The notes under the pieces: model-generated | Seen by the model: the letters and a program-made list of their open reading frames with translations, nothing else | What the model was told of the DNA's origin: nothing | The model's database searches: none | Program-made: the position numbers and the translations under genes | Source: Acidobacteriota bacterium | GTDB taxonomy: Bacteria > Acidobacteriota > Terriglobia > Bryobacterales > Bryobacteraceae | DNA length: 38,958 nt | Reading direction: 5' to 3' | Assembly (NCBI GenBank): GCA_025354525.1 | Contig: JANXMS010000605.1 | Coordinates: forward strand, 1-38,958 | Shown here: one piece after another, positions 3,947-37,580 of the stretch | How positions within the stretch are numbered: position 1 is the first letter of the stretch | How the letters are laid out: each line of letters begins with the position of its first letter

Positions 3947-6604
3947 CTATTGTAGAGAGCCCGCCTGGTTCTTCGGGTCGTCCCGCTCGACGTATTCGAT
4001 GCCTTTTTCCATCCAATCCGGTTTCGGATCACCTTTCAGATAATGGCCGAAGAACTGGAACATCCGCGCGGAATAATCCTTCTGATTGGCGCGCTTGCGA
4101 AGGCCGTGGGGCTCGCCGTTGTAGTTGAAGAAGTAGGCTTCCTTGTTCATCCGGCGCAGGGCCAGAAAGAACTCGATGCCTTGGGTCCAAGGCACGGCAT
4201 CGTCGCCATCGTTGTGCAGCATCAGGATTGGCGTCTCGACGCGGTCGGCCTCGAAAACCGGCGAGTTCTCCAGGAAACGCAGGGGATATTGCCAGATGCT
4301 GCCGCCGATCCGGCTCTGGGTCCGCTCGTATTGGAACTGCCGTGGGACGCCAGTGCCATAGCGGATGCCGGAGTAGGCCGAGAACATATTGGCGACCAGC
4401 GCCCCCGGCGCGGCAGCGCGGAACCGGTTCGTTTTCGTCACCATGTAGGCGATCTGATAGCCGCCCCAGGAGTGGCCTTGAATGCCGATCCGCTTCTCGT
4501 CGATGTAGCCCTGGTCGACAATTTTCTGCACGGCGGGCAACACGGCGTTCATGCCGCTCTGGCCGGGGTAGCCGACCGTGTAGGCGATGTCCGGCATCAG
4601 GACGACGTAGCCGTTTGAGGTATACAAAGTCGGGTTCATCCGATGGCTCGGGGCGGGGTCGTGGAAGGTGTGGAGCGTCTGCGAAAGGCGCTCGTAGATG
4701 TAGACCATCAACGGATATTTTTTCGTCGGATCAAAGTCGGGTGGCTTGATCAACACCCCTTGCAGCGGCACGCCATTCAGGTTTGTAAACTGCATCATCT
4801 CGGCCTTGCCCCAGGCTAATGTTTCCTGCTGCGGATTGGCGTTCGAGATCTTTTCGGTCTTGGCGAAGGCCGAATTGGTGATCAGCAAATCGGGCGATTC
4901 GGCGAACGTGGTCGCGGCGGTTAAAAGCACGTCGGCGTTCCTGGCTTTGGTCGGCGCGCGAAAGTTCTTCGGCCCCATCATCAGCTTCCGCGGCGGGTCG
5001 TCGCCGGTGAGCGAATCGCGATAGAAACCGGTTTCGCGGGTCATTTCATTCTCGGCTCGGAGTAACAGCGACTCGGCGGGATCGATGCCGCGGTCGCGCG
5101 GATCGGTCCGGAGCCGGACGATGCGGAACTGCAACTTGTCTTTGCGGCCCATGCCTTCGGTGACGTTCTTGGCCGCGGCCGCATCCGGCTTGAGCGCCCA
5201 CACATCGAACCGATCATTGGCCAGGAAATACTGGCTGTCCTTAGTCCAACCGCTGTTCCCGTAGTTCCCCGCTCCGCCGGGCGAATCGTGTAGTTCGCTA
5301 GAGAATTTCACTTTCAAATTGGCTGTGAGGTTGGTCGAGGTCATGTTCGTCAACATCACGCCCCACCAATCGCCCCTCGAAAAATACACGGCGGATTTGC
5401 CATCGGGCGACAGGATCGGCGCGCCAGTGGTCCGCCTCGCTAACATGCGCCGTTCGCCGGTTACGGTATCCACCACCCAGAAGTCGCTAAACCGGTCGTC
5501 CCAGTCGTTGTTCTTTCGATACTGCGAATCGTCCACCGCCGTCGCCACCAAACCGTCTTCGCTCGGCGTCACCTCCGGCACTTCGGCCGAACCCAACTGC
5601 ACCAGCTTCTTTTCGGCGATATGGAAGACTGCCCGGTAGCTTCGATTCCGGTCCTGCGTGGCGCGGACTTTCTGGATCGTTTGCACGCGGTCGTCCTTAT
5701 AATGCCACAGGTCGAAGACCGCCTTGTCGTCGGTCGGTTTGGCGTCCTTCGGCGAGGGCCGCTCTGTCGTCGTGCCGAAAAACACCCGCGCGCCATCGCG
5801 CGAAAATTGCACCGTCGCGCGATCACTCGTTCCGCCCATTGCCCATTCCGCCGCCGCCGCCTCGCCGCGCTTCCAACCGAACAGCCCCTTCTTCGAGACG
5901 AACGCTAACTGACCCTGGGTCAGATCCCACGTCAGCTTGGCATAAGGTGCTTTGGCCGTCGTCAGTGTCTTCAACTCGCCGTCGATCACGATCACGGCTT
6001 CCTTGGTCGCGATCGCCACCACCTTGCCGTCGCGGGTGAAGGAGAACTCGTTCACGTCGGCGAACTTGCGCTCGGTACCGTCTACCAGTGATCGCACGAC
6101 GAGTTCGCTGGGACCTTTGCCGGTTCGACGGTAGCCGACCGCGTTGGCGACGTCTTCGGGGAAGGCAAAGCTTTGCACATCGTCGATCCGCGTGATTTTT
6201 CCCGTCGCGACTTCGACGACTGCCAGCCCGGCCTTATCTTTCGGAGCGGCCTTCGGCGGGAAGGTCCCGATGAACAGGTAGCGGCCATCGCCGCTGAAAT
6301 CAACGCGGGGGCCACGCGGCGGGGGGGTCCGTTCTTCGCCGCCTTCGCCGTCGTCGTTGCGGGGGGGCATGGTGCCGATAGGGACGCGGACTTCGCGACC
6401 GTTGGCTAGTTCGCGGAACACCACCTCGCCGTCGCCGGCCTGGGGCATCAGGGCATAGGCCACGTATCTGCCGTCGCGCGACAGCTCCTGACTCTGGATC
6501 GACTTCCAGCCATCGAAGTCGGAGAAGGTGATCGGCCGTTTACTTTGGCCAAAGGCAGGCAACAGCAAGAGCGCGGAGAGCGCGGCAAGACGACGAAGAC
6601 CCAT
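3947..6604 (-). CDS. secreted S9-family (prolyl oligopeptidase) serine peptidase
   Basis: An 885-aa exported serine peptidase. The first 20 residues form a signal peptide (basic start, leucine run, A-F-G-Q). Residues ~30-620 have the repeated 'S-x-D-G-x-x-V' blades of a beta-propeller (S-R-D-G-R-Y-V, S-G-D-G-R-Y-L, S-P-D-G-K-S-A). The C-terminal 250 residues are an alpha/beta hydrolase domain with the nucleophile elbow G-H-S712-W-G-G, the acid in H-N-D-G-D-D-A-V-P (about 801) and H833 in G-E-P-H-G. The complete triad predicts an active periplasmic or outer-membrane peptidase working on short peptides. It opens the minus-strand operon. The first codons of the divergent TonB receptor lie only 70 bp away, so the promoters must share that gap. 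Confidence 0.93.
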   Translation of the reverse strand: MGLRRLAALSALLLLPAFGQSKRPITFSDFDGWKSIQSQELSRDGRYVAYALMPQAGDGEVVFRELANGREVRVPIGTMPPRNDDGEGGEERTPPPRGPRVDFSGDGRYLFIGTFPPKAAPKDKAGLAVVEVATGKITRIDDVQSFAFPEDVANAVGYRRTGKGPSELVVRSLVDGTERKFADVNEFSFTRDGKVVAIATKEAVIVIDGELKTLTTAKAPYAKLTWDLTQGQLAFVSKKGLFGWKRGEAAAAEWAMGGTSDRATVQFSRDGARVFFGTTTERPSPKDAKPTDDKAVFDLWHYKDDRVQTIQKVRATQDRNRSYRAVFHIAEKKLVQLGSAEVPEVTPSEDGLVATAVDDSQYRKNNDWDDRFSDFWVVDTVTGERRMLARRTTGAPILSPDGKSAVYFSRGDWWGVMLTNMTSTNLTANLKVKFSSELHDSPGGAGNYGNSGWTKDSQYFLANDRFDVWALKPDAAAAKNVTEGMGRKDKLQFRIVRLRTDPRDRGIDPAESLLLRAENEMTRETGFYRDSLTGDDPPRKLMMGPKNFRAPTKARNADVLLTAATTFAESPDLLITNSAFAKTEKISNANPQQETLAWGKAEMMQFTNLNGVPLQGVLIKPPDFDPTKKYPLMVYIYERLSQTLHTFHDPAPSHRMNPTLYTSNGYVVLMPDIAYTVGYPGQSGMNAVLPAVQKIVDQGYIDEKRIGIQGHSWGGYQIAYMVTKTNRFRAAAPGALVANMFSAYSGIRYGTGVPRQFQYERTQSRIGGSIWQYPLRFLENSPVFEADRVETPILMLHNDGDDAVPWTQGIEFFLALRRMNKEAYFFNYNGEPHGLRKRANQKDYSARMFQFFGHYLKGDPKPDWMEKGIEYVERDDPKNQAGSLQ

Positions 6605-6663
6605 GACGGTTACGATACACCCTGTTGTTCAAAGAAACTTCATGATATCCTTTCTCAAATCCC

Positions 6664-6670
6664 AGGAGGT
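6664..6670 (+). promoter_or_regulatory. ribosome binding site that fixes the receptor start
   Basis: A near-perfect Shine-Dalgarno sequence, AGGAGGT, ends 4 nt before the ATG at 6675. The receptor frame stays open upstream to 6528, inside the divergent peptidase gene, so this site together with the signal peptide settles the start at 6675. Confidence 0.8.
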
Positions 6671-6674
6671 CCAT

Positions 6675-9600
6675 ATGAACCACCGAGTCTTATTGAGCGC
6701 TCTCTTGATTTCCGCCGTGAGCTTCGGCCAAGCGGAACGCGGAACCTTTAATGGTTCGATTCTCGACCCGTCCGGCGCCGCAGTGGCTGGTGCCGCGGTC
6801 AAGATCTACAACATGGCTACCGGCGTTGAGTCGCCCGCCGCCGCTACTGCCGCGGGAGTCTACCGCATGCCGTCGCTTTCGCCGGGCACGTATCGGATCT
6901 CCGTCTCGGCTCCCGGCTTCAAAACCTCTGTTCGACAGAACGTTGTTCTGTCGGTCGCGCAAACGCTGACGATCGATTTTACTCTCGAAGTCGGCAATCT
7001 GAGCGACTCGGTCACAGTCTCTGCCGAAACGCCGCTGCTGGAGACCGGCACAGCGGAAATCGGCTCGTACGTTTCGAAGAAGGAGTTTGACACTTGGCCC
7101 ATCACTGTCAGCGACGGGCGCCGTCAACTTCAACAGTTCATCTTCACCTCACTTCCTGGCACCACCGGAGGCACTTGGCAAGGGTCGATCAACGGCGGCC
7201 AGCAGTATTCGCACGAAATCCTGATCGACGGCATCTCGCTCGGCCGCATGGACCTCGCGGGTGGTGCCAACGGCGAGTTCAGCCCCTCCGCCGAATCCAT
7301 CTCGGAATTTAAACTGCAGACGGGTACAGTGTCGGCGCAATACTCGGGCGGCCAGACTGCGGTGGCTAACTTCGCGACCAAATCGGGCACGAACGAGTTC
7401 CATGGCTCCGCTTATTACTACGGGCAGAACGATGCGCTTCGCGCGAATGGCTTCAGTCAGAACGCGGCCGGGGTAAGGCGGCAGCCCTTTAAACAGCATA
7501 ACTACGGCTACTCTATTGGCGGCCCGGTGCTAATTCCGAAAATCTATAACGGCAAGAACAAAACGTTTTTCTTCCATAACCTGGAGCGGACCAAACAGAA
7601 GAACTACAGCCAGACCACGTTCTCCCGGCTCCCGATGGCAGAATTTCAGCAGGGTGACTTCCGCCGCATCTTGAATCCGGCGTTCACCGGCAACAGCGTC
7701 TCAGGGTCGGCCGTAGGCACCGACGCGCTCGGCCGACCGATTGTCGGTGGCACGATCTACGACCCCTCCTCGTCCCGGCAAGTCGGCGGCGTTTGGGTTC
7801 GCGATATCTTCCCAGGCAACATCATTCCGCGCACGCGGATCAGTCCGGTGTCGCAGAAGATCCTCGATGTTGCGACGATTGACAAACCGCTGTTCGACAC
7901 AATGCTGAACAATATTCCGGCATTTGCCTCCGGCAGCCCAGAGTTCAAGGAAATGATGCTCACCTTCAAAGGGGATCACAATATCAATGAAAAGCATCGC
8001 CTGAGCGGCATGATCAATCGCAACTTCCGGGAACGGTACAACTCCGGGGCAGGCCGGTGGGGAACGCCTCCGGGAACACCTACCGGTGTCTATCAGAACC
8101 AGAATACGCCCGGCACCATGGTCAGGCTCGCCTACGATTTTACCGTTACGCCGACGCTGCTCGGTCGCGTCAACCTCGGTTACAACAGGTTTGGGAACAT
8201 CAACGAAAGCGCGTTCGTGGATCAGGACTGGCCCGCGAAGATTGGTTTGCAGAATGTCCCCGGCACGCACTTCCCTGTCCTCAACTTTGCTGGACTGCCC
8301 TTCCAGGGCGGTGGCATCGGCTCGAACGGACGCCTGGGTTCGGGTAACCGTGGCTCCGGCTATAACGGATCCACCATTATTCAGACTGACTTCACGAAGG
8401 TCGCGGGGAAGCACAATTACAAGTTCGGCTTTGAAAATCGCCGCTACTACTACAACACGCGGACCAAGTCCGGATCGGGTGATTTCAATTTTTCACCGAA
8501 CCAGACGGCGCTGCCGGGCTTCATCAATCAGACAGGCCACAGCTTCGCAAGCTTTCTCCTCGGCGAATACGCCTCCACGAACCGCGGCATCGCGGCTTCC
8601 AACTTTGGGCACCGTTGGCGCACCGCTGGCTTTTACTTCCAGGATGACTGGAAAGTGTCCCGCAAGTTGACTTTGAACATAGGGATTCGCTGGGAAATCG
8701 TCGGCGGTCTTGTGGAGGTCGCGGGCCGCATGTCTGGAATCGATTACACCGTGCCGAACCCGGGTGCGGGTAACCTTCCTGGTGCGCTTGTCTTCGCCGG
8801 CGACCGTAACGCTAAGGGATTCCAGGGAACGTATTGGAAGCAGATTTCGCCCAAGTTTGGCTTCGCCTACGCGATGACCAATAAGTTGGTTCTGCGCGGT
8901 GGTTACGGTATTAACAACACACCAGCCATCTCGAACGGGTTCGGTTTCGGCGGAACCCTCGGCTTCAACGGCAACTTGGTCGTCAATTCCGGCAACACCT
9001 CGATTCCATTCGCCGAAGCGTCCCTCGGCAATATCTCCAACCCGTATCCGAGCTTCGCGGGGACCTTGCCGAACAAGATTCCGACGCTCGCCAACGGCCA
9101 AGGTATCGACTTCTACCCGACGAGCGGCAACCAACTCCCGTACGTGCAGAACTGGAATTTCGGCTTCCAGTACCAGCTCCCCGCCAGCTCCGTAATCGAA
9201 GTAAATTATATTGGCAATAAGGGCACCCGCCTCATGGCAAGGGGATTTGATCAGCCGAACAACGTGCCGTTTACGGCGACCCAGCAATATGGCGATCTGC
9301 TACCCCGCCCGTGGAACGCTTCGAGCCCCATTCCGCAGCCGTTCCCCGGCTTCGTCGGGACGAACCTACAGGCGTTGCGCCCCTATCCGCAGTTCACGGG
9401 GATCAACAACATCTTCCCGAACATGGGAACTTCCTCCTACAACTCCCTGCAGGTTCAGGCAACCCGCCACTTCAGCAAGGGGCTTGCCCTGCTCGGTGCC
9501 TATACGTGGTCGAAAACCATCGGACTGGCAGATAACGCCCTGGACGCCGAAGGCGTGGCGGACGTCTTCAATCGTCGATTAGAACGATCGATCACCAACC

Positions 9601-10196
9601 AACACTATCCGCATGTGGCGAAGTTGAGCTGGATCTACGAACTGCCGGTTGGACAAGGACGAGCCCTCAAAACGAGCGGAATTGTCGACAAGGTGATCGG
9701 TGGCTGGCAGGTGAGCGGTATCCACGGGTGGCGCAGCGGCAGCCCTGTCGCCATCGGCACTGGCGGTATCAGCCTGCCCACCGGCAGTACCGTCCGTCCA
9801 GACCTTGTCCCTGGTGTTCCGATTGTGCTGAACTCTGACGCTCCCATCAACTTCCGCGGCATCAATGGCGGAACCGCCTATCTAAACCGCGCTGCCTTCA
9901 GCAATCCTCCGGTCTTCGCCGGCGGCCAAAACGTCGTGGAGCGGCTTGGCACTGTTGGGCCGTACCTGCCCAACATCCGGGATCGCCACCTCACCACTTT
10001 CGACGCCAGCATCCAGAAGTTCTTTAAGTTCGACGAAGTGCGGAACATCCAACTCCGCGGCACTTTCTTGAACGCGTTCAACTGGGCCGGGATCGGTGGC
10101 CTGGATACCAACCTCACCAGTCCGTTCTTCGGCCAGTTCACCGGCCCTCAGATCGGACCGCGCAACATCGAAATCGCCCTCCGCTTTACGTTCTAA
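6675..10196 (+). CDS. Oar-like TonB-dependent receptor with carboxypeptidase-regulatory domain (1)
   Basis: A 1173-aa outer-membrane protein. A signal peptide (to A-V-S-F-G-Q, ~20) is followed by a carboxypeptidase-regulatory-like beta-sandwich (G-T-F-N-G-S-I-L-D-P-S-G-A-A-V-A-G-A, to ~105). Next comes a TonB plug-like region containing I-D-G-I-S-L-G and the G-T-N-E-F-H-G-S-A motif typical of acidobacterial Oar-like receptors. The rest is a long beta-barrel with aromatic strand ends, finishing in ...I-A-L-R-F-T-F with the terminal phenylalanine expected for BAM-dependent insertion. Such receptors import or bind bulky substrates at TonB expense. The substrate cannot be read here. The seven-heme cytochrome starts immediately after the stop codon, so the two genes are probably co-transcribed. 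Confidence 0.9.
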   Translation: MNHRVLLSALLISAVSFGQAERGTFNGSILDPSGAAVAGAAVKIYNMATGVESPAAATAAGVYRMPSLSPGTYRISVSAPGFKTSVRQNVVLSVAQTLTIDFTLEVGNLSDSVTVSAETPLLETGTAEIGSYVSKKEFDTWPITVSDGRRQLQQFIFTSLPGTTGGTWQGSINGGQQYSHEILIDGISLGRMDLAGGANGEFSPSAESISEFKLQTGTVSAQYSGGQTAVANFATKSGTNEFHGSAYYYGQNDALRANGFSQNAAGVRRQPFKQHNYGYSIGGPVLIPKIYNGKNKTFFFHNLERTKQKNYSQTTFSRLPMAEFQQGDFRRILNPAFTGNSVSGSAVGTDALGRPIVGGTIYDPSSSRQVGGVWVRDIFPGNIIPRTRISPVSQKILDVATIDKPLFDTMLNNIPAFASGSPEFKEMMLTFKGDHNINEKHRLSGMINRNFRERYNSGAGRWGTPPGTPTGVYQNQNTPGTMVRLAYDFTVTPTLLGRVNLGYNRFGNINESAFVDQDWPAKIGLQNVPGTHFPVLNFAGLPFQGGGIGSNGRLGSGNRGSGYNGSTIIQTDFTKVAGKHNYKFGFENRRYYYNTRTKSGSGDFNFSPNQTALPGFINQTGHSFASFLLGEYASTNRGIAASNFGHRWRTAGFYFQDDWKVSRKLTLNIGIRWEIVGGLVEVAGRMSGIDYTVPNPGAGNLPGALVFAGDRNAKGFQGTYWKQISPKFGFAYAMTNKLVLRGGYGINNTPAISNGFGFGGTLGFNGNLVVNSGNTSIPFAEASLGNISNPYPSFAGTLPNKIPTLANGQGIDFYPTSGNQLPYVQNWNFGFQYQLPASSVIEVNYIGNKGTRLMARGFDQPNNVPFTATQQYGDLLPRPWNASSPIPQPFPGFVGTNLQALRPYPQFTGINNIFPNMGTSSYNSLQVQATRHFSKGLALLGAYTWSKTIGLADNALDAEGVADVFNRRLERSITNQHYPHVAKLSWIYELPVGQGRALKTSGIVDKVIGGWQVSGIHGWRSGSPVAIGTGGISLPTGSTVRPDLVPGVPIVLNSDAPINFRGINGGTAYLNRAAFSNPPVFAGGQNVVERLGTVGPYLPNIRDRHLTTFDASIQKFFKFDEVRNIQLRGTFLNAFNWAGIGGLDTNLTSPFFGQFTGPQIGPRNIEIALRFTF

Positions 10197-11465
10197 GTGC
10201 GACGGCTGTTTCTTTACCTCTTCGCTGCCCGGGTCTTCGCGGACCCGGGCAGTGCTGCTTGTGGCCCCTGTCACGCCGACATCGTCAAACGCTACGCCCT
10301 TACCGGCATGGCCCGCGCCAGCACGGCAGACTCCCTCGGCTCCGGCTCCATCGGCAAAAGCTATATAGCATTCATCGATAACTTCCTCGTCCAAACGCCC
10401 CGCTCCTTCTTCGCCAAAACCAACTCGTTCGCCCTCTCCCCCGGCTTCCCCAGCGCCCAGACCTACCGCCCCGTCGAAGAGCCTTGTCTGCAATGCCACG
10501 CGACCGGCGTCCGCCTCGTGAAAGGCACCCAAAACCAATACCCGAATCCTCCCTTCGCCGAACCCGGCATCGGCTGCGAACGCTGCCATGGCCCAGCCGA
10601 AGCCCACGCGGTCAACCCCGCCAAACTCCGCGCCGAACGCCGCGACAACGTCTGCGAACAGTGCCACCTCACGGGTGCCGCCAAGGTCACCCGCGCCGGT
10701 AAGAACCCCTACGACTACCGCCCCGGCGACCGCCTCTCCGACTTCGTCTCCATCTTCGTCGAATCGTCAAAAAACAACGCCACCGACCACGTCGAACAGC
10801 TCTCGGAAAGCGCGTGCAAGCAAGCCGCAGGCGACAAACTTTGGTGCGTCACCTGCCACGACCCCCACGGCGGCCTAAAGCCCAACGCCTGCCAAACCTG
10901 CCATACCCCCGACAAATGCGGTCGTGGCCCTCAATGCGCCACATGCCACATGCCTAAAGCGGAAAGCGCCGATGCCCACGTCGCCTTCACGAATCACCGC
11001 ATCGGGGCCAAGCCGCAGCCCAAGCCGTTCCGCCTCTACTGGCCCGGCCCCGCCCCCGCCCGCGAACTCGCCCTCGCCCGTCCCACCATCGCCGGCCTCG
11101 AAAAAATCGAACCCAAGGACGCCGCGGTCCTGACCCAACTCGGCCAACTCTACGACCGCGTCAAGCGCGGCCCCGAAGCCGCCGCTCTCTATCGCCGCGC
11201 CCTTAAGCTGAACCCAAGCGAACCCACCGCCGCCGCCAACCTCGCCATCTACGAGTTCCAAAACGGCCAGGTCGCCGCCGCCCTCGCCCGCTGGCAAGGC
11301 GTCTTCGCCCGCTACCCCGGCCTGTCCGGCCCCGGCCTCAATCTCGCCCTCGCGCAGTCGCAGCGCGGCGACCCATCCGCCGCCCGCGCAACCCTCCTCC
11401 GCTTGCTCCGTTTCCACCCCGGAAACGCGCAAGCCCGCGAACTTCTCAGCCGTCTACCCCCCTAA
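10197..11465 (+). CDS. seven-heme c-type cytochrome with C-terminal TPR repeats
   Basis: A 422-aa secreted multiheme cytochrome. After a signal peptide (cleavage near V-F-A-D, ~15) there are seven CxxCH heme-attachment motifs: C22GPCH, C97LQCH, C127ERCH, C153EQCH, C217VTCH, C232QTCH and C247ATCH. This resembles the cytochrome c554/c-prime or NrfB-like multiheme proteins. From about residue 310 to the end there are TPR-like helical pairs (A-L-x-L-N-P-x-x-P and similar). The GTG start directly abuts the TAA of the receptor gene (taaGTG), so translation is likely coupled. It probably transfers electrons in the periplasm or on the outer surface, with the TPR part docking a partner. The redox partner and terminal acceptor are not identifiable. 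Heme attachment needs a cytochrome c maturation system elsewhere. Confidence 0.9.
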   Translation: MRRLFLYLFAARVFADPGSAACGPCHADIVKRYALTGMARASTADSLGSGSIGKSYIAFIDNFLVQTPRSFFAKTNSFALSPGFPSAQTYRPVEEPCLQCHATGVRLVKGTQNQYPNPPFAEPGIGCERCHGPAEAHAVNPAKLRAERRDNVCEQCHLTGAAKVTRAGKNPYDYRPGDRLSDFVSIFVESSKNNATDHVEQLSESACKQAAGDKLWCVTCHDPHGGLKPNACQTCHTPDKCGRGPQCATCHMPKAESADAHVAFTNHRIGAKPQPKPFRLYWPGPAPARELALARPTIAGLEKIEPKDAAVLTQLGQLYDRVKRGPEAAALYRRALKLNPSEPTAAANLAIYEFQNGQVAAALARWQGVFARYPGLSGPGLNLALAQSQRGDPSAARATLLRLLRFHPGNAQARELLSRLPP

Positions 11466-13125: not shown

Positions 13126-13152
13126 TTCAAGCTTCTGATAGGATTGGGGCAA

Positions 13153-16100
13153 ATGAAACTTGCTTCAGTTGCCCTCGTCCTGGCCGTGGCGCGTCTAGCC
13201 ACCGCCCAATCTTCGCAAGCCAACATTTCCGGCCTCGTCGCTGACGGGCAAGGCGCCATCATCGTCGGTGCGCAGGTCACCGCCCGTGGTCTCGCCAACG
13301 GCTCCACCACCACCGTTACCACCAACGATTCCGGCCTCTACGCCCTCCGCGCCTTACCCATCGGGGCCTACACCCTCACCATCGAAAAGCCCGGCTTCAA
13401 AAAGCTCGTCCGCTCCAATCTCACCCTCACCACAGGCCAGAGCCTCGAACTCAATCTCGCCCTCGAAATCGGAGCCGTCACCGAGTCCATCAACGTCTCC
13501 ACTTCGGCGTCTTCCATCGACACCCGCTCGTCCGACGTCAGCCAACTCGTCGAATCCAAAACCATCGAAGACATGCCCATCGGCGATCGCCGCAGCATGA
13601 ACATCGTCGGCCTCACAGGCGCGGCCGTCTTCGTCAGTTACGACTCCGGCGGCAAACCCAACTTCTCCCTCGCTGGCGGTCGCACCCAGTCGCAGAACTT
13701 CTTCATCGACGGCGGCACCGCCCAGAATATGCGCCTCGGCATCGGCCAGGTCGATCTCGATCCCCCAGTCGAAACCGTCGCCGAAGTCAAAATCCTTGCG
13801 AATTCTTACTCCGCCGAATACGGTGGCAGTGCCGGGGGCGTTGTCATCGCCACCACCAAGTCCGGCACCAACAAACTCCAGGGCACGCTCTTCGAATACT
13901 TCCGCAACGAAAAGCTCGACGCCGCCAACTACTTCGCGCCCGTCAACGCCACAGGGGCGAAGGTTCGAGCCCCGCTCCGCTATAACGTCTTCGGCGGCAC
14001 GGTCGGCGGCCCCATCGCCATTCCGAAGCTCTACAACGGCAAGGACAAAACGTTCTTCTTCTTCGCCTATGAAGGCAGCCGCCGCAACGAAGGCTTCGCC
14101 CGCACCCTCACCGTTCCCACTGCCGCCCAGCGCCTCGGCGACTTCAGCACCAACGCCAATCCCATCTTCGACCCCGCCACCACCTCCCTCGTCAACGGTG
14201 CCAATCGCCGCACCCAGTTCCCCGGCAACGTCATCCCCCGCAACCGCATCGACCCCGCTGCTCTCGCCCTCGCCAGCTACTATCCCGCCCCCAATCGGCC
14301 CCCCGACAACGCCACCGGCGTGAACAATTTCCGCGCCAACTACGTCACCCAATTTCCCCGCAACAACTACACCGCCAAGGTCGACCACAACATCACGACC
14401 AATGACAAACTCACCATTCGCTATCTCTTCAACTCCGACGATAGCTTCAACTCGACCGTCTTCCCCATCGCTGCGGCCGAGACTATGTCCGACGCGTCCC
14501 GCCACCAAAACTACACCTACCTTTCCTACAACAAAATCATCACCCCGACCATTCTGAACGAAGCCCGTTACACCTACGGCAATCGCACCAATTGGGCCCT
14601 ATCGAAGGGCCTTGGCGAAGACTGGGGGAAGGTGATCGGCATCGCCAATCTCCCCGCCGGTGCCTTCCCCACGCTTTCCGCCATCGGCTACACCGCTCTC
14701 GGCAACGCCGCCCAGGAACGTCGCCAGTTCCCCATTCAGCAACACCAAATCATCGACAACTTCTCCGTCGTCCGCAACCGGCACAATCTCAAATTTGGCT
14801 TCGAGTACCGACTCAGCATGAACTACGAAACCAACCGCCCCAGCGCCTCCGGAGCCTTCACGTTTGGCCCTCTCTCCACGGGCCAACCTGGCACCGCGGC
14901 CTCCGGCAACGGCTATGCGTCCATGCTGCTCGGCCTGATGACGAACTACAACGCCCGCGAGACCGAAGTCCTCGACCGCCGCAGCACTTACCTGTCCTGG
15001 TTTGTCCAGGACGACTGGAAAATCAGTCGTAATCTTACGTTCAACTTCGGCGTCCGCTGGGAAACCGACACCCCCATCATCGACGTCAACAACCGCATGA
15101 ACGGCTTTGATGCCGCCCAAATCAATCCCGTCAGCGGCACTCCCGGGGTCGTGAAATTCATGGGCGTCAATAGCTTTCCGACCTCGCCCTATGCAACCGA
15201 CAAGAACAACTTCGGCCCTCGCGCCGGATTCGCCTACAAGGTACTTGGCCGCGACGCCACGGTGATCCGCGCCGGCTACGGGGCTTACTTCGCCCACCCG
15301 TTTGACGCCGGCGCACCGGCCAGCGCCAGCCTCGGCTTTGAAAAGCAGCTTTCCCTCGTCTCGCCCGACCAAGGCATTACGCATCCCTTCGTCCTCAGCC
15401 AAGGCCCCGGTGCCGCCACCGCCATCGCGCCGGTGTTGAACGACAGCTTCGGCGCCGTTCGCGTCGGGCAAGCGCCGAACACAGCGGTCACTTACTTTGA
15501 GCCGACCCGGCGAACCGGCTATTCGCACCAGTTCAACTTCGGCATCCAGCACGTGCTCTCGGGCGGCATTCTGCTCGAAGCGACGTATCTCAGCAACATT
15601 TCCCACAAGCTGCCAAGCTCGAATCTGTCGCTGAATCAGATTCCGCTGGCGCAAGCCGCTGCCGGCCGCACGACCCAGGCCTCCCGACCGTTCCCCCAGT
15701 TCAGCGGCGTCACGCTGCTGCTCCCCAGCCTGGGCGATTCGAGTTATCACGCGCTCGCCACCCGTTTTGAGAAGCGCTTCGCCAGCGGCTTCAACTTCCT
15801 CGGGACTTACACGTGGTCGAAGTTTCTCAACAACACGAACGAAGGCGGCGGCCAGGTCGGCAACGATGCTGGGCCTTACTCAGACTTCTATAACCGTCGT
15901 CTCGACTACGGCTACAGCGGCAACGACGTTCCCCACCGGCTGACGTTTGCCAGTGTCTACGAGATCCCGTTCGGCCAAGGCCGAAGGTTTCTTAAGGGCA
16001 ACTCCCCGCTTCGTTGGGTAGTTGGGGATTGGAACCTAGGCGTGAACGCCCTGCTCCAGGCGGGAGCGCCTTTCACGGTGACGACCCAGGTAGACACCCG

Positions 16101-16467
16101 CAATAACTTCTCCGCCGGAGCGCTTCGTGCGGACATCGTCGGCGCCCCCGCACTCGAAAACGACCAGCGTACGCCCGGCCGTTGGTTTAACACGGCGGCG
16201 TTTGCCCAGCCCGCGGCGTTTCGGAACGGAACCGGCGGCGTCGGCATCGTGCGTTCGGATGGCAAAGTCAACCTGGACATCTCGCTGCTGAAGAACTTCC
16301 CGATGGGCGACCGCCGCAAATTCCAACTCCGCGGCGAATTCTTCAACCTGATGAACCACCCGAACCTGGGCAACCCCGGCTCCGTCCTCGGCGGCCCGGG
16401 CTTTGGAGTCATCGCCTCCGCCGACCCCGGGCGGCGTGTGCAACTCGGGGCGCGGCTAGTCTGGTAG
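13153..16467 (+). CDS. Oar-like TonB-dependent receptor with carboxypeptidase-regulatory domain (2)
   Basis: A 1104-aa outer-membrane receptor of the same architecture as the one at 6675. It has a signal peptide ending near L-A-T-A-Q, a carboxypeptidase-regulatory fold (A-N-I-S-G-L-V-A-D-G-Q-G-A, ~25-110), a plug-like segment with F-F-I-D-G-G and the T-K-S-G-T-N-K-L-Q-G-T motif, and a barrel ending ...L-G-A-R-L-V-W. The last residue is tryptophan, an acceptable aromatic terminus. The ATG at 13153 lies 9 nt after an AGGA; a TTG three codons upstream is less likely. The overall sequence differs clearly from the first receptor, so this is a separate paralogue and not a recent copy. The 3' end overlaps the convergent DsbD-like gene by 12 bp. 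The substrate is unknown. Confidence 0.9.
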   Translation: MKLASVALVLAVARLATAQSSQANISGLVADGQGAIIVGAQVTARGLANGSTTTVTTNDSGLYALRALPIGAYTLTIEKPGFKKLVRSNLTLTTGQSLELNLALEIGAVTESINVSTSASSIDTRSSDVSQLVESKTIEDMPIGDRRSMNIVGLTGAAVFVSYDSGGKPNFSLAGGRTQSQNFFIDGGTAQNMRLGIGQVDLDPPVETVAEVKILANSYSAEYGGSAGGVVIATTKSGTNKLQGTLFEYFRNEKLDAANYFAPVNATGAKVRAPLRYNVFGGTVGGPIAIPKLYNGKDKTFFFFAYEGSRRNEGFARTLTVPTAAQRLGDFSTNANPIFDPATTSLVNGANRRTQFPGNVIPRNRIDPAALALASYYPAPNRPPDNATGVNNFRANYVTQFPRNNYTAKVDHNITTNDKLTIRYLFNSDDSFNSTVFPIAAAETMSDASRHQNYTYLSYNKIITPTILNEARYTYGNRTNWALSKGLGEDWGKVIGIANLPAGAFPTLSAIGYTALGNAAQERRQFPIQQHQIIDNFSVVRNRHNLKFGFEYRLSMNYETNRPSASGAFTFGPLSTGQPGTAASGNGYASMLLGLMTNYNARETEVLDRRSTYLSWFVQDDWKISRNLTFNFGVRWETDTPIIDVNNRMNGFDAAQINPVSGTPGVVKFMGVNSFPTSPYATDKNNFGPRAGFAYKVLGRDATVIRAGYGAYFAHPFDAGAPASASLGFEKQLSLVSPDQGITHPFVLSQGPGAATAIAPVLNDSFGAVRVGQAPNTAVTYFEPTRRTGYSHQFNFGIQHVLSGGILLEATYLSNISHKLPSSNLSLNQIPLAQAAAGRTTQASRPFPQFSGVTLLLPSLGDSSYHALATRFEKRFASGFNFLGTYTWSKFLNNTNEGGGQVGNDAGPYSDFYNRRLDYGYSGNDVPHRLTFASVYEIPFGQGRRFLKGNSPLRWVVGDWNLGVNALLQAGAPFTVTTQVDTRNNFSAGALRADIVGAPALENDQRTPGRWFNTAAFAQPAAFRNGTGGVGIVRSDGKVNLDISLLKNFPMGDRRKFQLRGEFFNLMNHPNLGNPGSVLGGPGFGVIASADPGRRVQLGARLVW

Positions 16468-16959
16468 CCGAACCGCTTCTAACTTGGGCCAGCTCTCCGC
16501 TGGCCCAGTTGCCACCTCCACCTTCACATCAATATTCTTACAAATCGACGCCGTACAAGCCTGCGCCTTCACCCCCACCTTCCCCACTTCCCCCACCCTC
16601 TTCACCGGCACCACAAACACCGCCTCCCCTTCGTACCCCCACGTAAAAATCCGCAGCTCCGGCTTCGAGAAATCCACCGGCACCGTCTGCCTCCATCCCC
16701 CATTCACAGTCAACCCTTCCCCCACCGTCACCCGCGTCGGCTGGTCCATCCCCAACGCCTTCCTCCCCTTTAACGCCTCCGCCGCCCGCACCGCGTTATC
16801 CATCGCAAACGTGTGCCACCCCTTCCCTAACTTCACCCGCACCACTAACTCTTCCCCCGCTAACTTCGCCTCGTAAGTCGCACAAACCTCATCATCCACC
16901 CGCACCTCCATCGGCCCGCCCCACCCCGCCGCCATCAGTAACAATCCTAGTATCTTCAT
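16456..16959 (-). CDS. DsbD N-terminal-domain-like periplasmic protein
   Basis: A 167-aa exported protein (leader M-K-I-L-G-L-L-L-M-A-A-G-W-G) resembling the N-terminal immunoglobulin-like domain of the thiol:disulfide interchange protein DsbD. It has the family-like strand G-K-G-W-H-T-F-A-M-D-N, F-x-W-G-Y-E-G-E-A-V-F, and a late Cys pair A-C-T-A-S-I-C-K (~136-141) in the position of the nDsbD catalytic cysteines. The transmembrane and C-terminal thioredoxin domains of full DsbD are absent. It is the second gene of a two-gene unit: its ATG overlaps the TGA of the selenoprotein gene (ATGA, 16956-16959). That strongly suggests a shared redox job, with this protein passing electrons to or from the thioredoxin-fold selenoprotein. 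The pairing is inferred from gene order. Confidence 0.75.
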   Translation of the reverse strand: MKILGLLLMAAGWGGPMEVRVDDEVCATYEAKLAGEELVVRVKLGKGWHTFAMDNAVRAAEALKGRKALGMDQPTRVTVGEGLTVNGGWRQTVPVDFSKPELRIFTWGYEGEAVFVVPVKRVGEVGKVGVKAQACTASICKNIDVKVEVATGPAESWPKLEAVRLPD

Positions 16960-18170
16960 TTCCGAAAACTCATCTGCATCGTCTTCAACGCCATCTCAAT
17001 CTTCTTCCCACCCCGCATCACCTCGAGCGTCGCTCCATCCCCCGGAGCCTTGCGCAACACCAGATACAACGTCGCCGTATGCGCATGACTATCCACCCGC
17101 TTCCCGTCCACCGCCGTAATCACATCCCCCACCTCCAACCCGTGCAGCTCCATCGTCTTCGCCGTGCTCGATACGTATTTCACCATGCTCGCAAACCCCT
17201 CCGCCGGCAACCCCATCGCCTTCTTCTCCTCCCCGCTCAGCGGTCGATCATCAAAGAAAAACCGCGGCTCCACGCTCGACTGCCGAAACTTCGTATCCGT
17301 CAACCACCACCGCACCGGCAGCGCAATTGCCAGCTCCACCATCGCCCCAACCCGCTCCACCGTCACCTTGGCCACGCTAGCCGTCCGCGGCGTTTCATTG
17401 TACCGGTGCTGCACGTCCCCAAACGTCCAAACCGTCTTCCCCTCCCACTGCGCAATCCGATCCCCCGCCTTCATCCCTGCCTCCCCCGCCGCCCCCGTCG
17501 CCTCCTTCACCACCAACCCCTTCGGCACGTCAAGACTAACCCCGATCGCTTTCAAATCCGGCGACCGAAACAAATGCTGCAACTTGTCCAACGTCCCGTC
17601 CTGTTGCCGATGCAGGTTCTGATAATCCCCAATCAAATGGCACTCCACACACTGGTTCTTCGCAAACGTCCGCTCGACAAGAAGCGCATAGTTTTTCGGA
17701 AAATCCGGCTTCGGCCGAACCGTCGCCGCCGGTCGATTCGCATGAAGCTCCAACCCCTTCGCCGCCGCCAACGTCAAGCTCTCCAAATTCAAATACGCGT
17801 CCGGCGACGTCGAATCCCGCCCCCCGTACCGCATATAAATCTGCTCATCCGCGTTCAACAAATAGAAGTACAGTGTATTGTTCCGATCATGCTCGAACAA
17901 CCCAATATCAATCGTGTCCATCCGCGTGATCCGCACGCACACGTACTGCCGCAACAGCTTGCCCAACACAGAATCTTTCGGTGACAGCACAACCTGTGCG
18001 TCAAAAATCCTACCGTTCGTTCAAGGCTCGCACCGAAACTCCAGGAAGATCGGCTTCCCCGTCGCCTTCGCCGTCTTCACCGCCTCGGCATAACTGTCCA
18101 GCCACACGATATCATCGTCCTGACCCATCGCCATCGCGGCCAAACCAAAAACCAGCAGCAAAAGTCGCAT
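16956..18170 (-). CDS. probable selenoprotein: thioredoxin-fold/PDZ protein with in-frame TGA (Sec50)
   Basis: A 404-aa exported protein if the TGA at 18021-18023 is read as selenocysteine. Residues 1-16 are a signal peptide (M-R-L-L-L-L-V-F-G-L-A-A-M-A-M-G). Residues ~20-140 form a thioredoxin-like domain with the active site F-R-C47-E-P-U50, a CxxU version of CxxC. A single CxxCH (C174-V-E-C-H) could bind a c-type heme. Two PDZ-like domains follow (~205-275 and ~325-400). The frame is identical on both sides of the TGA (starts at 18170 and 17990 differ by a multiple of three) and stays open through the join. A SECIS-like hairpin follows the TGA. From memory, NCBI annotates a related Trx7/PDZ (seleno)protein family. 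A plain nonsense mutation or a downstream restart is the alternative, but the TGA at exactly the CxxC position makes that unlikely. It is coupled by ATGA to the DsbD-like gene. Confidence 0.82.
17979..18015 (-). promoter_or_regulatory. candidate bacterial SECIS hairpin
   Basis: On the minus strand, 18 nt after the TGA, the sequence GAC-GCAC-AGGTT-GTGC-T-GTC folds into a 7 bp stem with a single bulged U on the 3' side and a 5 nt loop containing GG. A short outer pairing (CGGU 18012-18015 with ACCG 17979-17982) could close the structure across an asymmetric internal loop. The loop starts 25 nt after the TGA, inside the range expected of bacterial SECIS elements, and its G-rich loop and bulged U recall the SelB-binding determinants of E. 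coli fdhF. The pairing is seen in the sequence; SelB binding is inferred. Confidence 0.7.
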
Positions 18171-32948: not shown

Positions 32949-35921
32949 CTAGAAGCGCACGCGAACGCCAAGTTGCATTTGACGGGGCCCGCCGAACCGG
33001 TCTGTACCCGGAGCGAATGTTGGGACCAACGCCGTATTGTTCGCGAAGGGCAGTCCCGTATTGGGGTTGATGGTCGCCGTCGGTCGGCCAAACGTGGTCT
33101 CGCCGTCGCCATTGAACGCCTTATTGCTTGATCGAGTAAGGTTGAATGCCTCGGCGGAAAAGGTGAGTTGAGCGCTCTCGCCAAGCCTGAAATCCTTCAG
33201 CAGGCGAACATCCCAACTGAAAAACCCAGGCTGCCGGAAAGCATCCCGCGCGGCCACTTGGCCGTTGATCACCGGTCGGTCGTTGACGGTATTGCCGTCG
33301 TTCTGGGTGTCAACGCCTACCACCGGTTTGACGATGACGCCGGTGCGGGCGAACAGCAGCGTGCTGACCGTGAAACCGCGACCGAGGTCGTAGAGCAGGT
33401 TCAGATTTCCGTTGTGGCGGATGTCGTTTTTGGCGAAAGAAGCGTCACGCGTCAGGTTAAACGTATCGAGCGTTCCCTGCCGATTAAAATCGCGTTCGTT
33501 CGAATCGTCGTCGTGATTGAACGCGTAGGTGTAGTTAACGCCAAACTGGACCTTTCGGCTCATGCGGCGTTGCAGGCTGAGTTGCAGACCGTCGTAACGG
33601 GAGTGGGCCACCGACTTGTTCTCATTGATCTGGCCGATCCTCGGATCGGGCCGCGCCACGCTCGCCGGCAACGTGCGTCCGGTCGAATCGGCGAACACGG
33701 GCAGGCCAGTGATGCCGTTAAAGCTTGACGGATAAACCAGGTTGCGGTTCGCGTCAAAGGTCGGATACACCGGCAGTCCGTTCGGTAACGTCCGCGTCGG
33801 AAAAAGGTTCGTATCGATGCGGCGCTGCAGGTGCCAAGTCGAGTTGCGGGTGTAACCGATCGTGATCTTCGTGTCGCGGGTAATTTGCTGTTCCAGCGCC
33901 ATCGCAACCTGACCCGAACGAGGATTCCGGAACGAAGGGTCAAACGCATAGATGCTATTAATCGGCGTTTTGATGCCCGACGGCAAGGACGGGAACGGGT
34001 TCGGAACTTGCAAGAAGTTGAGAATCGAAGCATCCGTGCCACTATCGAGGATCAATGTGTTCAGCCCGTTGTCGGTGAAGATCCGCTGCATCAAGTAGCC
34101 CGGCGTGCGCGCCGCGAACAGGCCAGACGAAATCCGAATCACGGTTCGGCCTCGGCCCTCCACCTTCCACGCCAGCCCCAGCCGGGGCTGAAACATTTTG
34201 ACGTCGTTCGGGATCTGGCCGGTGATCGGGTACCTCGGGTTGGGCGTGTTGGGCTGCGGGTTGATCTGAGCCTCATAACGCAGACCGGCCGTTAGCGTCA
34301 GGTTCGGGCGAAGCCGAAAAATATCCGTGACAAATCCCGCATAATCCTGCTGTTTCCCGTTGTAGCGGCCTTGCGTTCCGTTGGCGGCAATCGACTGCTG
34401 ATACCGGGAAACCTTCGAGATATTGCCCCCGACCGCCGCAATGTAGTCAGCCAGCGTACTGAACGTATACGCCCCGCCGTAGTTAGTTTCGCGTTGCTGC
34501 TCCTGCGGGCTAATGTTGGCGTCCACGCCAACCTTCAACGTATGGCGGCCTTTGTTCCACGTCAGGTTGTCGATGAACTGAATCCGGGTCGCGTTATAAA
34601 TGTAGGTCCCGTTCTTGCTGCCGCCGAGCGTTCCAAAATCGTTGATGACGACTTCAGCCAGCGTGCTATTCGGGCGCTGCGTCCGATTGTCGTATGCGTA
34701 TTGGAACCGGAAGTCATGGAGCAAACTCGGCGACAGGACCGTCGTGAGGGCCCCTTTGACGCCTTGGCTCGCCCGGTCCAGGATCGTGTTATTCGTCGAT
34801 GCGGCCGTGGTCTGGCCGCTCACGCCGCCGAAGTTCAAGCCGTGCTGGGCCGCATACGTGTACTGCAGGTTCAACATCGTCGCCGTGCTCCACTGATAGT
34901 CAAGACGGCCAAAAGCCACCAGCGGATTATTCTTCTGGTTGAAGGTTCCTTCTCGACTCTTTATGTCCGCCGGTACAGCGATGTTGCCGGAAGGAACATT
35001 GAACTTTACCGTGTAGGGAATCGTCAGAAGGTTCTTTTCAACGGCGGCGAAAAAGAAGAGCTTGTCCGTGCGGATCGGTCCCCCGGCCGAAATGCCGAAC
35101 TGATGCTGGGAATTGTTGCTTGCGTCATTCCCAAACGCATCCTTCGACGTCATCGATCCATTCCGATTGGCGTAAAAACCTTCGCCATGATAATTGTTCG
35201 TGCCCGACTTGGTCACCACGTTGATGTACCCCGAGTTCGTACGCCCCACTTCGGCCGACGCACCGTCGCGGACCACTTGGAACTCGCGCACGGCCAGTTG
35301 GGGGAAAAAGTAGGCGGACTCCTGCGGACCCCCGCCGCGCTGGCCACCCTGCAGCGAATCGTTAAAGTCGACGCCATCCACCGAGATGTTCGAGTTGATC
35401 GACCGTTGGCCGTTCACCACAATCCCGTTGCGGTTGCCTTCCTGCATCACGCCGGGAGTCAGTTGGATAAACTCAGCGAAATTCCGGCCGCGAATCGGCA
35501 GCCGTTCAATTGCTCGCTCTCCAATCGTGGTGCTGTTGCTGGTGTCGGCCCGGTTCACGATTTCAGCCGCTGCGTCAACCGTGATCGCGCTGGAAACCGA
35601 CTCGATCTGCAGCGAGATCCGCAGGGTGACGGTTTGGCCCACCGTTAACGCCAGGTTCTCCGCGCGAAACAAAGCAAATCCGGGATATTGCGCTTCGATC
35701 AAGTAGCGGCCCACCGGTAACGCGCTGAGGCGGAATTTGCCATCGACCTGCGAAGTCGCCCGCCGGGTGGCGCCGGTTTGGGTGCTCTTCAGGAGAAGCG
35801 TTGCTCCCTCCAACGGCTTCCCCGTCGGGTCGACCACTGTCCCTTCGCAGGAGGCTCGACCGGCCTCGGACTGCGCAAAAACGGTGGTTGCGAGAAGGCT
35901 CAACAGAACAAAGAGTTTCAT
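32949..35921 (-). CDS. Oar-like TonB-dependent receptor (3), next to sialidase
   Basis: A 990-aa outer-membrane receptor. Signal peptide to T-T-V-F-A-Q (~16); carboxypeptidase-regulatory domain beginning C-E-G-T-V-V-D-P-T-G-K-P-L-E-G-A; plug-like region with R-G-R-N-F-A-E-F, G-V-M-Q-E-G and S-V-D-G-V-D-F-N; then a barrel with G-T-N-N-Y-H-G-E-G-F near its start, ending ...L-G-V-R-V-R-F with terminal Phe. The ATG at 35921 is chosen for the signal peptide, with AGGA about 10 nt upstream; the frame is open for a further 108 codons through the intergenic region. It heads a unit with the 94-aa gene and the sialidase, so a sialylated glycan or glycopeptide is the most likely ligand. No SusD-like lipoprotein is present. 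Confidence 0.9.
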   Translation of the reverse strand: MKLFVLLSLLATTVFAQSEAGRASCEGTVVDPTGKPLEGATLLLKSTQTGATRRATSQVDGKFRLSALPVGRYLIEAQYPGFALFRAENLALTVGQTVTLRISLQIESVSSAITVDAAAEIVNRADTSNSTTIGERAIERLPIRGRNFAEFIQLTPGVMQEGNRNGIVVNGQRSINSNISVDGVDFNDSLQGGQRGGGPQESAYFFPQLAVREFQVVRDGASAEVGRTNSGYINVVTKSGTNNYHGEGFYANRNGSMTSKDAFGNDASNNSQHQFGISAGGPIRTDKLFFFAAVEKNLLTIPYTVKFNVPSGNIAVPADIKSREGTFNQKNNPLVAFGRLDYQWSTATMLNLQYTYAAQHGLNFGGVSGQTTAASTNNTILDRASQGVKGALTTVLSPSLLHDFRFQYAYDNRTQRPNSTLAEVVINDFGTLGGSKNGTYIYNATRIQFIDNLTWNKGRHTLKVGVDANISPQEQQRETNYGGAYTFSTLADYIAAVGGNISKVSRYQQSIAANGTQGRYNGKQQDYAGFVTDIFRLRPNLTLTAGLRYEAQINPQPNTPNPRYPITGQIPNDVKMFQPRLGLAWKVEGRGRTVIRISSGLFAARTPGYLMQRIFTDNGLNTLILDSGTDASILNFLQVPNPFPSLPSGIKTPINSIYAFDPSFRNPRSGQVAMALEQQITRDTKITIGYTRNSTWHLQRRIDTNLFPTRTLPNGLPVYPTFDANRNLVYPSSFNGITGLPVFADSTGRTLPASVARPDPRIGQINENKSVAHSRYDGLQLSLQRRMSRKVQFGVNYTYAFNHDDDSNERDFNRQGTLDTFNLTRDASFAKNDIRHNGNLNLLYDLGRGFTVSTLLFARTGVIVKPVVGVDTQNDGNTVNDRPVINGQVAARDAFRQPGFFSWDVRLLKDFRLGESAQLTFSAEAFNLTRSSNKAFNGDGETTFGRPTATINPNTGLPFANNTALVPTFAPGTDRFGGPRQMQLGVRVRF

Positions 35922-36003
35922 AAAAATCGAATCCTGACCACGCCGAGTATCGCGGGCCAAGGTTACGAAGCTATTGCGAAGCAGAAACGAAACCATGAAT
36001 ACT

Positions 36004-36030
36004 TTGTCAAATCCGATTTGGATGTAAAAT
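36004..36030 (+). promoter_or_regulatory. possible sigma-70-type promoter for the hydrolase-fold/Sel1 gene
   Basis: TTGTCA (36004-36009) and TAAAAT (36025-36030) with a 15 nt spacer lie 21 bp before the ATG at 36051, in an AT-rich stretch between two divergent genes. The spacer is shorter than usual, and sigma-factor preferences of this group are poorly known, so this is only a candidate. Confidence 0.3.
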
Positions 36031-36050
36031 ACAGCGTGAACCGAGAGAAA

Positions 36051-37580
36051 ATGATGAAAAACGCAATGCTGGTTTGGATGGCGGCCATGGCCGCCTGGGG
36101 CGCTACGCCGGGTGAATTGGAGTTGAAGGACGAAGCCGGAAAAACGATCATTCGTTACGCCGTCTCGGCTCCGGCCGGCCTTGCCCCCGCGAACACGAAG
36201 GACCCTACCAAGCAAGTAGGCATATTTCTCTGCTTCCCGGAACACGATCGCCCAACCGGCGACGAAATGCTTCCCGTCCGCGCGGCCCTACAGCGGCTCG
36301 GTTTGAGCGATCAGTTCGTCGTCATCGGGGCTCATCCGCAGGGGCAAAAAGTTAACGTCATCGACCACGAGCCCATCCAAAAGCTCTTAGCCTGGGCCAA
36401 GAAAACCTATCCCATCAATCCACGGCGAGTCTACCTCTACGGCAAGGGCGAAGGCGGCAAAATCTCAGGGCAAATGGCGATGCTATTCCCCGATTTGTAT
36501 ACGGCCTCCATCTCCTACAGTTGGAGTTGGTGGCTCATGCCATCTCATCTCGATAAGCCCTTTGATGCCGTGAAAGAAGGCGCTGAGATCTACATGGTGC
36601 TCGGAATGCGCGATCTATCGCACCACTTAACCAACGTCCGCGATGGCTACAGTCGAGTCCAGGCGAAAGGTGCCCACGTGATCTACCGCGAAGTGGATGA
36701 CCTCGGCGCCCGCACCTATCACCCTGTCTCGAACGACGACGCCGTCGCCTGGGCTGTGGCGCAGCGGAACAAGCGGCTGCCCTTGTCGGCAGGCGAAAAG
36801 GCGTTACTGGCCAAAGGGCACGGCCTAGAGGTGGTCGGCGGAGCGGCCGCCGGAGAGGTGGTGCGCAAAAACCTCACCCCGGCCAACGTCCGCGCTTGTG
36901 CCAAGACCAACTGCGGCGAAGCGGCCATCGAAGCCATCGGCCAGCTCGGCACACGTCCAGACGTCATTTCTACCCTGGCCGTAAATGCGAATTGGCGAAG
37001 CGCCGCCGCGCAGGCCGCCTTGATTCGGATGGCGCTGACCGACGAACCCGGCGTGGACCGCGTCACCGCCGTCGACGCCCTGGGACGGGCTGTTCGGCTC
37101 CAGATCAACGGCGTCAAGCAGGATCCGCCAATCTTCTCCGCGCTCGTGAAGTTGCTCTCCGACAAGGACGAAGAGTTGCGGACGATGGCCGCGAACCTGT
37201 TAGCTCCGATCCGCGACCGCGACTTCCGCGGCGACCTCGGCCGACCCGAGAAGAAGTTCCCCGAAGGCGGTTGGGAGAAGTGGCTGGCCGACATCACGGC
37301 GAAGAATGAGGGCTTCGGCACCTTAGGCAACTTCCCCGTCACGCTGGCGGCAGCGCAGAAAGGAGACACCGCCGCCGCGGCGAAAGTCGGCATGCTCTAC
37401 GCAGTGGGCAATGGCGTGGAGCAAAACTTCGTCGAAGCCGAAAAATGGTGGACCAAAGCCGCTGAAGGGGGGCACCGGCTATCCGCCCGCAACCTTTCGA
37501 TGATGTACCGCGGAGCGCCCGGAATGAACGGCAAAGCGGAACTCGCTGCGAAGTGGACGAAGGTAGCGGAGGCACCGTGA
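36051..37580 (+). CDS. hydrolase-fold protein lacking the nucleophile serine, with Sel1 repeats
   Basis: A 509-aa exported protein (leader to A-A-W-G-A, ~18). Residues ~30-240 look like an alpha/beta hydrolase of the phospholipase/carboxylesterase type (V-G-I-F-L-C-F-P-E-H-D, V-Y-L-Y-G-K-G-E-G-G). At the nucleophile elbow, where G-x-S-x-G-G is expected, it has G131-K-G133-E-G-G, so the serine is replaced by glycine and esterase activity is doubtful. Residues ~250-400 contain repeated helical segments resembling HEAT-like repeats. Residues ~435-505 contain Sel1-type repeats (A-K-V-G-M-L-Y-A-V-G-N-G-V, A-E-K-W-W-T-K-A-A-E). Sel1 repeats bind other proteins, so a scaffold role is plausible. Start: tandem ATGs at 36051 and 36054; GAGAG at 36043 fits the second slightly better. 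It is divergent from the receptor gene. Confidence 0.7.
   Translation: MMKNAMLVWMAAMAAWGATPGELELKDEAGKTIIRYAVSAPAGLAPANTKDPTKQVGIFLCFPEHDRPTGDEMLPVRAALQRLGLSDQFVVIGAHPQGQKVNVIDHEPIQKLLAWAKKTYPINPRRVYLYGKGEGGKISGQMAMLFPDLYTASISYSWSWWLMPSHLDKPFDAVKEGAEIYMVLGMRDLSHHLTNVRDGYSRVQAKGAHVIYREVDDLGARTYHPVSNDDAVAWAVAQRNKRLPLSAGEKALLAKGHGLEVVGGAAAGEVVRKNLTPANVRACAKTNCGEAAIEAIGQLGTRPDVISTLAVNANWRSAAAQAALIRMALTDEPGVDRVTAVDALGRAVRLQINGVKQDPPIFSALVKLLSDKDEELRTMAANLLAPIRDRDFRGDLGRPEKKFPEGGWEKWLADITAKNEGFGTLGNFPVTLAAAQKGDTAAAAKVGMLYAVGNGVEQNFVEAEKWWTKAAEGGHRLSARNLSMMYRGAPGMNGKAELAAKWTKVAEAP

Follow-up and report, generated by a model that had tools for sequence, protein, structure and literature searches.

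A predicted CxxU selenoprotein of Acidobacteriota with thioredoxin-like and PDZ domains, an invariant CXXCH motif and an adjacent DsbD_N-like gene

Results

Gene organisation at the locus

The stretch of DNA analysed here, referred to below as the window, comprises 38,958 nt of an acidobacterial genome. On its minus strand, a frame starting at position 18170 runs for 49 codons to a TGA (18023..18021), continues in the same phase for 354 more codons and closes with a terminal TGA (16956-16958). The peptide around the interruption reads M...FLEFRCEP-TGA-TNGRIFDAQVV..., and the coordinates, frame and TGA position reported in an earlier note on this DNA were all right. Mechanical ORF calling leaves a 344-residue frame downstream of the TGA, which is devoid of the N-terminus and of half of the thioredoxin fold because its first start codon is the GTG at 17990. 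Neither half is sensible alone, as the earlier note had argued, and the Thioredoxin_7 domain spans the TGA. Its further statement that standard annotation misses or splits the gene holds for calls that stop at TGA, but a curated NCBI model for the family does exist. The features of the locus are given in Table 1.

Table 1. Features of the two-gene unit and their positions in the window
Feature	Position	Strand	Remarks
Trx7/PDZ selenoprotein gene (predicted)	16956..18170	minus	404 residues + stop, Sec = residue 50; read-through translation
Active-site motif C47-E-P-U50	18021..18032	minus	Predicted Sec codon TGA 18021-18023; TGA there in 54/54 acidobacterial loci
SECIS hairpin (by comparison) GACGCACAGGTTGTGCTGTC	17983..18002	minus	Apical loop AGGUU; begins 21 nt past first TGA base
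Thioredoxin_7-like domain	17730..18116	minus	Residues 19-147; Pfam PF13899
CXXCH, C174-V-E-C177-H178	17637..17651	minus	Linker between Trx and PDZ domains; putative c-type heme attachment
PDZ domain 1	17322..17528	minus	About residues 215-283; Pfam PDZ_2 stretch and predicted structure
PDZ domain 2	16983..17237	minus	About residues 312-396; Pfam PDZ_2 stretch and predicted structure
DsbD N-terminal-domain-like protein	16456..16959	minus	167 aa; ATG overlaps selenoprotein stop (ATGA)
CTASIC redox Cys pair C135, C140	16540..16557	minus	Both Cys invariant in 29 aligned relatives

Elsewhere in the window, three intervals (6528-10196, 13144-16467 and 32949-36245) each encode a very large outer-membrane beta-barrel protein with CarboxypepD_reg domains (PF25183). 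A gene for a protein with a cytochrome c554-type multiheme part and TPR repeats lies at 10197-11465 (+), a few kilobases away from that for the selenoprotein.

Family assignment and predicted fold

The read-through protein scored 416.2 bits against the NCBIfam model NF041199 (trx7_PDZ_seleno; cut-off 300) and has its Trx_7/PDZ architecture (Pfam PF13899 and PF13180); the same model was matched by all 25 aligned sequences. The window protein is thus a new member of an already predicted selenoprotein family, and the Trx/PDZ family of Planctomycetes and Acidobacteria that the earlier note had mentioned is real (NF041199; reviews PMC9312934 and PMC13188914). The two reviews list it as predicted, with a CxxU motif and one Sec, and trace it to the GOS survey of 2008 (PMC2398784), whose table contains a 'putative secreted serine protease MucD' with two Sec sequences and CxxU. 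By our own reading, this entry appears to be the Trx7/PDZ family. The 2008 designation as a MucD/HtrA serine protease was rejected, as the protein has no trypsin-like catalytic domain and only its PDZ domains match.

The Pfam Thioredoxin_7 match covers residues 23-82 and runs across the TGA. An AlphaFold model of the read-through protein, computed from 25 aligned sequences with U written as C, had a mean pLDDT of 86.9 and showed a complete thioredoxin fold and HtrA-like PDZ domains. The best structural match of the thioredoxin domain was 3f9u_A (Z 13.1, rmsd 2.7 over 117 residues); in structure comparison of the model, its nearest neighbours in fold were reductases of the DsbD type and disulfide isomerases rather than peroxiredoxins. 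The N-terminus is signal-like, as judged by eye.

Conservation of the TGA codon

Codon 50 is TGA in all 54 acidobacterial loci and no other codon was seen there, which rules out a chance stop; since some genomes are present in two collections, these loci leave 33 rows below 90% identity. Twenty-five homologous contig loci, retrieved with peptide patterns that left out the TGA region, had TGA at this codon without exception (25/25). Within the Bryobacteraceae, 31 gene matches were obtained in 150 genomes, with TGA at the codon throughout the copies read. A search of plasmid records for homologues found none. In Planctomycetota, 113 loci carried either Sec (85) or Cys (28) at the second motif position and nothing else. 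The UGA is thus flanked by homology on both sides and has Cys homologues, as is usual for bacterial selenoproteins, and residue 50, which the earlier note had proposed to compare among homologues, is invariably Sec or Cys.

Extra in-frame TAG codons, reflecting sequencing error, decay or another cause, were observed in otherwise intact copies: at residue 161 in L026/L106, which derive from one genome, and just past the CXXCH in the distant relative L052.

A hairpin immediately downstream of the TGA

The RNA 3' of the TGA forms a bulged stem with an apical AGGUU (-9.4 kcal/mol; z -2.25 against shuffled sequences), whereas in a longer RNA window the fold was no better than that of shuffles (z -0.81). 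The hairpin sequence is nearly unchanged across Acidobacteriota (33 unique sequences), at synonymous sites too, and the 20-mer has a single match in the window where 0.01 would be expected (up to 3 mismatches allowed). In Planctomycetota a stem is found at the same distance from the TGA with other sequences, and it covaries. The cells of its 7-bp stem were paired in 81% of cases in 80 unique planctomycetal Sec sequences, as against 21% in 27 Cys relatives. Sliding the 3' side reduced pairing in the Sec sequences to 29-51%, and shuffling of the pairing partners gave at most 77%, with 0 of 2000 shuffles reaching the observed value. Among the same Sec sequences, 27 cells, distributed over 6/7 stem pairs, were altered on both sides. 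At the apex, most planctomycetal stems read AGGUU, AGUUG or AGGUC. Judged from these alignments, the stem is a bacterial SECIS pattern, a hairpin just 3' of the UGA at a fixed distance and with a conserved loop G (AGGUU/AGUUG), that is lost where the codon encodes Cys. A gathering-threshold Rfam scan of the window gave no match, so the case for the SECIS is made by comparison.

Selenocysteine machinery

The genome (7.32 Mb, 97% complete) contains every component whose presence the earlier note had suggested checking: profile searches recovered selA (454 bits), selB (361.9 bits, over the cut-off) and selD (350 bits), and a tRNA-Sec with anticodon TCA was found at 74 bits. The selD gene (L022, G000:C549:18147-19049) is likewise interrupted by an in-frame TGA, at the U of the motif GUASK, and an AGGTT-loop hairpin lies downstream of it; SelD is therefore a second selenoprotein of this genome. 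In addition to the complete selB on C192, another SelB-like stretch lies near a contig start (L002, G000:C270:13-879; 195 bits over the first 264 model positions), representing a fragment, a paralogue or contamination.

Counted over genomes, which are not independent events, tRNA-Sec accompanies the gene. In Planctomycetota it was detected in 64/75 genomes with TGA copies versus 14/44 with Cys copies only (Fisher p 4e-9), and in Bryobacteraceae in 30/31 genomes with the gene versus 88/119 without (p 0.003). Of the genomes reached through the loci, 26/27 had a tRNA-Sec match, although two matches, at 48.3 and 52.7 bits, are close to serine-tRNA scores. The 11 planctomycetal genomes, out of the 75 carrying TGA copies, in which tRNA-Sec was not detected (e.g. 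G697, G853, G845) are probably incomplete, as may be the one genome of the 27 that had no match.

Active-site variants and phylogeny

The 113 planctomycetal loci, in which three genomes are counted twice, comprised 54 UxxU (two TGA codons, mostly UxxUxxC), 31 CxxU and 28 CxxC forms. UxxU members (e.g. L111, L114, L117, which was scored by eye, L120, L122, L139 and many of L140-L214) have a pair of in-frame TGA codons nine bases apart, giving a diselenide-type active site, with one hairpin seen past the second. A quick, unrooted tree of 138 rows was computed with the motif left out. On it, 20 changes are needed to explain the UxxU label, and supported branches force 13 of these; without a root, gain and loss of UxxU are not separable. 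The acidobacterial copies formed one group (99%) joined to a planctomycetal Sec group (100%), a topology that points to a single inter-phylum transfer.

The CXXCH motif

The CXXCH was present in 167/167 loci from the two phyla, as invariant as the CxxU site itself. In 152 unique sequences the fully conserved positions were C47, C/U50, C174, C177, H178, P204 and G210; H143 was conserved in 90%, and no distal heme ligand was fully conserved. In an exported protein, CXXCH is the signature of covalently bound heme c, and its occurrence in all loci suggests a c-type heme. Cytochrome c assembly genes are present in the genome. A search of the selenoprotein for cytochrome c Pfam families at E 0.001 gave no match, for which reason the protein is not filed as a cytochrome and the heme stays a matter of inference. 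On its sequence, the linker probably carries covalent heme c.

The adjacent DsbD_N-like gene

In 51/54 acidobacterial loci, the selenoprotein gene is followed on its own strand by a homologue of the second gene, within 141 nt in 46 and displaced in 5; of the three loci lacking a match, one is cut by a contig end and one has little downstream DNA. The Pfam family PF11412 was matched by 23/29 relatives of the protein, the window copy itself scoring 21.1, under the Pfam cut-off of 25. Its AlphaFold model (pLDDT 91.8) resembles ScsB-N (Z 12.3) and nDsbD (Z 9-10), so that it combines an nDsbD fold with a redox Cys pair. The two-gene unit itself encodes no DsbD membrane domain, and one DsbD_TM gene was found elsewhere in the genome. 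The DsbD_N-like protein is a plausible electron partner of the selenoprotein. This gene was found next to the selenoprotein in Acidobacteriota only. At two planctomycetal loci (L047:4910-6703 and L048:4257-6053), PSCyt2/PSD1 (DUF1549/DUF1553) genes lie downstream in its place.

Discussion

The earlier reading of the gene as a CxxU selenoprotein stands, since the refuting conditions named with it were checked and did not hold, and it is backed by the TGA in 54/54 acidobacterial loci, the SECIS and the full Sec machinery; UGA codon 50 is almost certainly decoded as selenocysteine in vivo. The invariant CXXCH, the DsbD_N-like gene and the SECIS are additions to that account. Its description of the product as a periplasmic selenium-dependent oxidoreductase is supported as to the selenoprotein, 'oxidoreductase' being conditional on the model that follows.

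In the proposed mechanism, the hairpin 21-40 nt downstream would direct SelB and tRNA-Sec to read UGA codon 50 as Sec, while the terminal UGA would terminate translation. The product would be exported by virtue of a signal-like N-terminus and would present a DsbD-gamma-like thioredoxin domain with C47-x-x-U50, the CXXCH linker and two PDZ domains, which probably dock a protein partner. Electrons would pass between its C47/U50 selenenylsulfide and the Cx4C cysteines of the co-encoded DsbD_N-like protein, roughly in the way that nDsbD is reduced by cDsbD. We consider such an exchange rather likely, if a little less so than the heme. In DsbD, electrons flow from cDsbD to nDsbD (1vrs is the complex of the two); for this reason the simplest route would be from C47/U50 to C135/C140 and on to a target. 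The linker probably holds one heme c, which may serve as a one-electron input or output, and the two proteins together may relay reducing equivalents in the periplasm to oxidised protein thiols or peroxides. Most likely, the selenoprotein would accordingly serve in the periplasm as a selenol/thiol electron carrier or reductase, with the heme and the direction of flow put forward conditionally. The fuller proposal, that Trx7/PDZ is a 'seleno-cytochrome' in which a Sec thioredoxin site, often a diselenide-type UxxU in Planctomycetota, is coupled to covalent heme c within a DsbD_N-like relay in Acidobacteriota, is tentative and has somewhat less than even chances. If true, one-electron heme chemistry would be converted to two-electron thiol/selenol chemistry in one exported chain.

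Another possible explanation is that the CXXCH binds no heme and is a second thiol/disulfide or a metal site (with H143), or mimics apocytochrome c and is reduced by the thioredoxin domain. The empty Pfam search and the lack of a fully conserved distal ligand would fit with this, and nDsbD/cDsbD-type proteins are known to act in cytochrome c maturation. However, the His is as invariant as both Cys in the 152 unique sequences, which a plain disulfide would not need, the genome has cytochrome c assembly genes, and two planctomycetal relatives lie beside PSCyt2/PSD1 genes; we thus regard a heme-free linker as unlikely, although it is the strongest of the alternatives. Less probable still is that the protein acts as a peroxidase and not as an electron carrier, with Sec and heme removing peroxides and the DsbD_N-like protein merely recycling the enzyme. 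Many peroxidases contain Sec, and domains of the nDsbD type are able to reduce partners in the periplasm, but the closeness of the Trx_7 fold to DsbD-type reductases and disulfide isomerases instead of peroxiredoxins speaks against it.

The readings that dispense with Sec have next to no probability, and pseudogenisation, sequencing error and UGA = Trp were all ruled out by conservation, Cys replacement and the machinery: a true stop in a pseudogene or split gene, or a misread TGC/TGT, might draw on the additional TAG codons in L026/L106 and L052, but is contradicted by TGA in 54 acidobacterial and 85 planctomycetal loci, by protein conservation on both sides and by the covarying SECIS, while general recoding of UGA to Trp or unprogrammed read-through, for which the frame would be open under any UGA-reading code, is at odds with the gene's own TGA stop, with relatives that have Cys and never Trp, and with the presence of tRNA-Sec and SECIS.

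The electron carrier or reductase thus remains the preferred reading of a hidden selenoprotein for which the RNA and phylogenetic evidence is unusually strong. A family so far filed simply under 'Trx7/PDZ, CxxU' turns out to contain an invariant motif for heme attachment, and its acidobacterial members are accompanied by a conserved candidate gene for a redox partner; together these give it a testable function. The CXXCH, the DsbD_N-like partner and the UxxU members seem to be previously undescribed for this family; in the main texts of open-licence papers, no heme-plus-Sec thioredoxin and no UxxU form of Trx7/PDZ was found. The occurrence of one active site as CxxC, CxxU and UxxU in Planctomycetota offers a natural series on one versus two selenium atoms.

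Among known systems, the published NF041199 family agrees with the window protein in domain order and in the CxxU position of Sec, but its accounts describe one Sec in CxxU, and do so without the CXXCH, the DsbD_N-like partner or UxxU members. The UxxU motif of the planctomycetal Trx7/PDZ relatives is also that of the diselenide selenoproteins of Shchedrina et al. 2007 (PMC1955791, referred to in PMC2398784); these are a different family, and the window protein is CxxU. MamP, a magnetosome protein of the 'magnetochrome' kind, combines PDZ with c-type heme motifs (CXXCH), and its PDZ domain (4jj3) aligns with that of the window protein (Z 10.3); unlike the latter, it has neither a thioredoxin domain nor Sec, and its domain order differs. 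With DsbD (E. coli, Neisseria; N-terminal alpha and C-terminal gamma domains) and ScsB, the likeness is that a DsbD-type C-terminal domain is the best match of the thioredoxin domain (3f9u) and that nDsbD/ScsB-N resemble the product of the next gene, whereas the window pair consists of separate exported proteins without a membrane domain, with Sec in place of the second Cys and with PDZ domains and CXXCH added.
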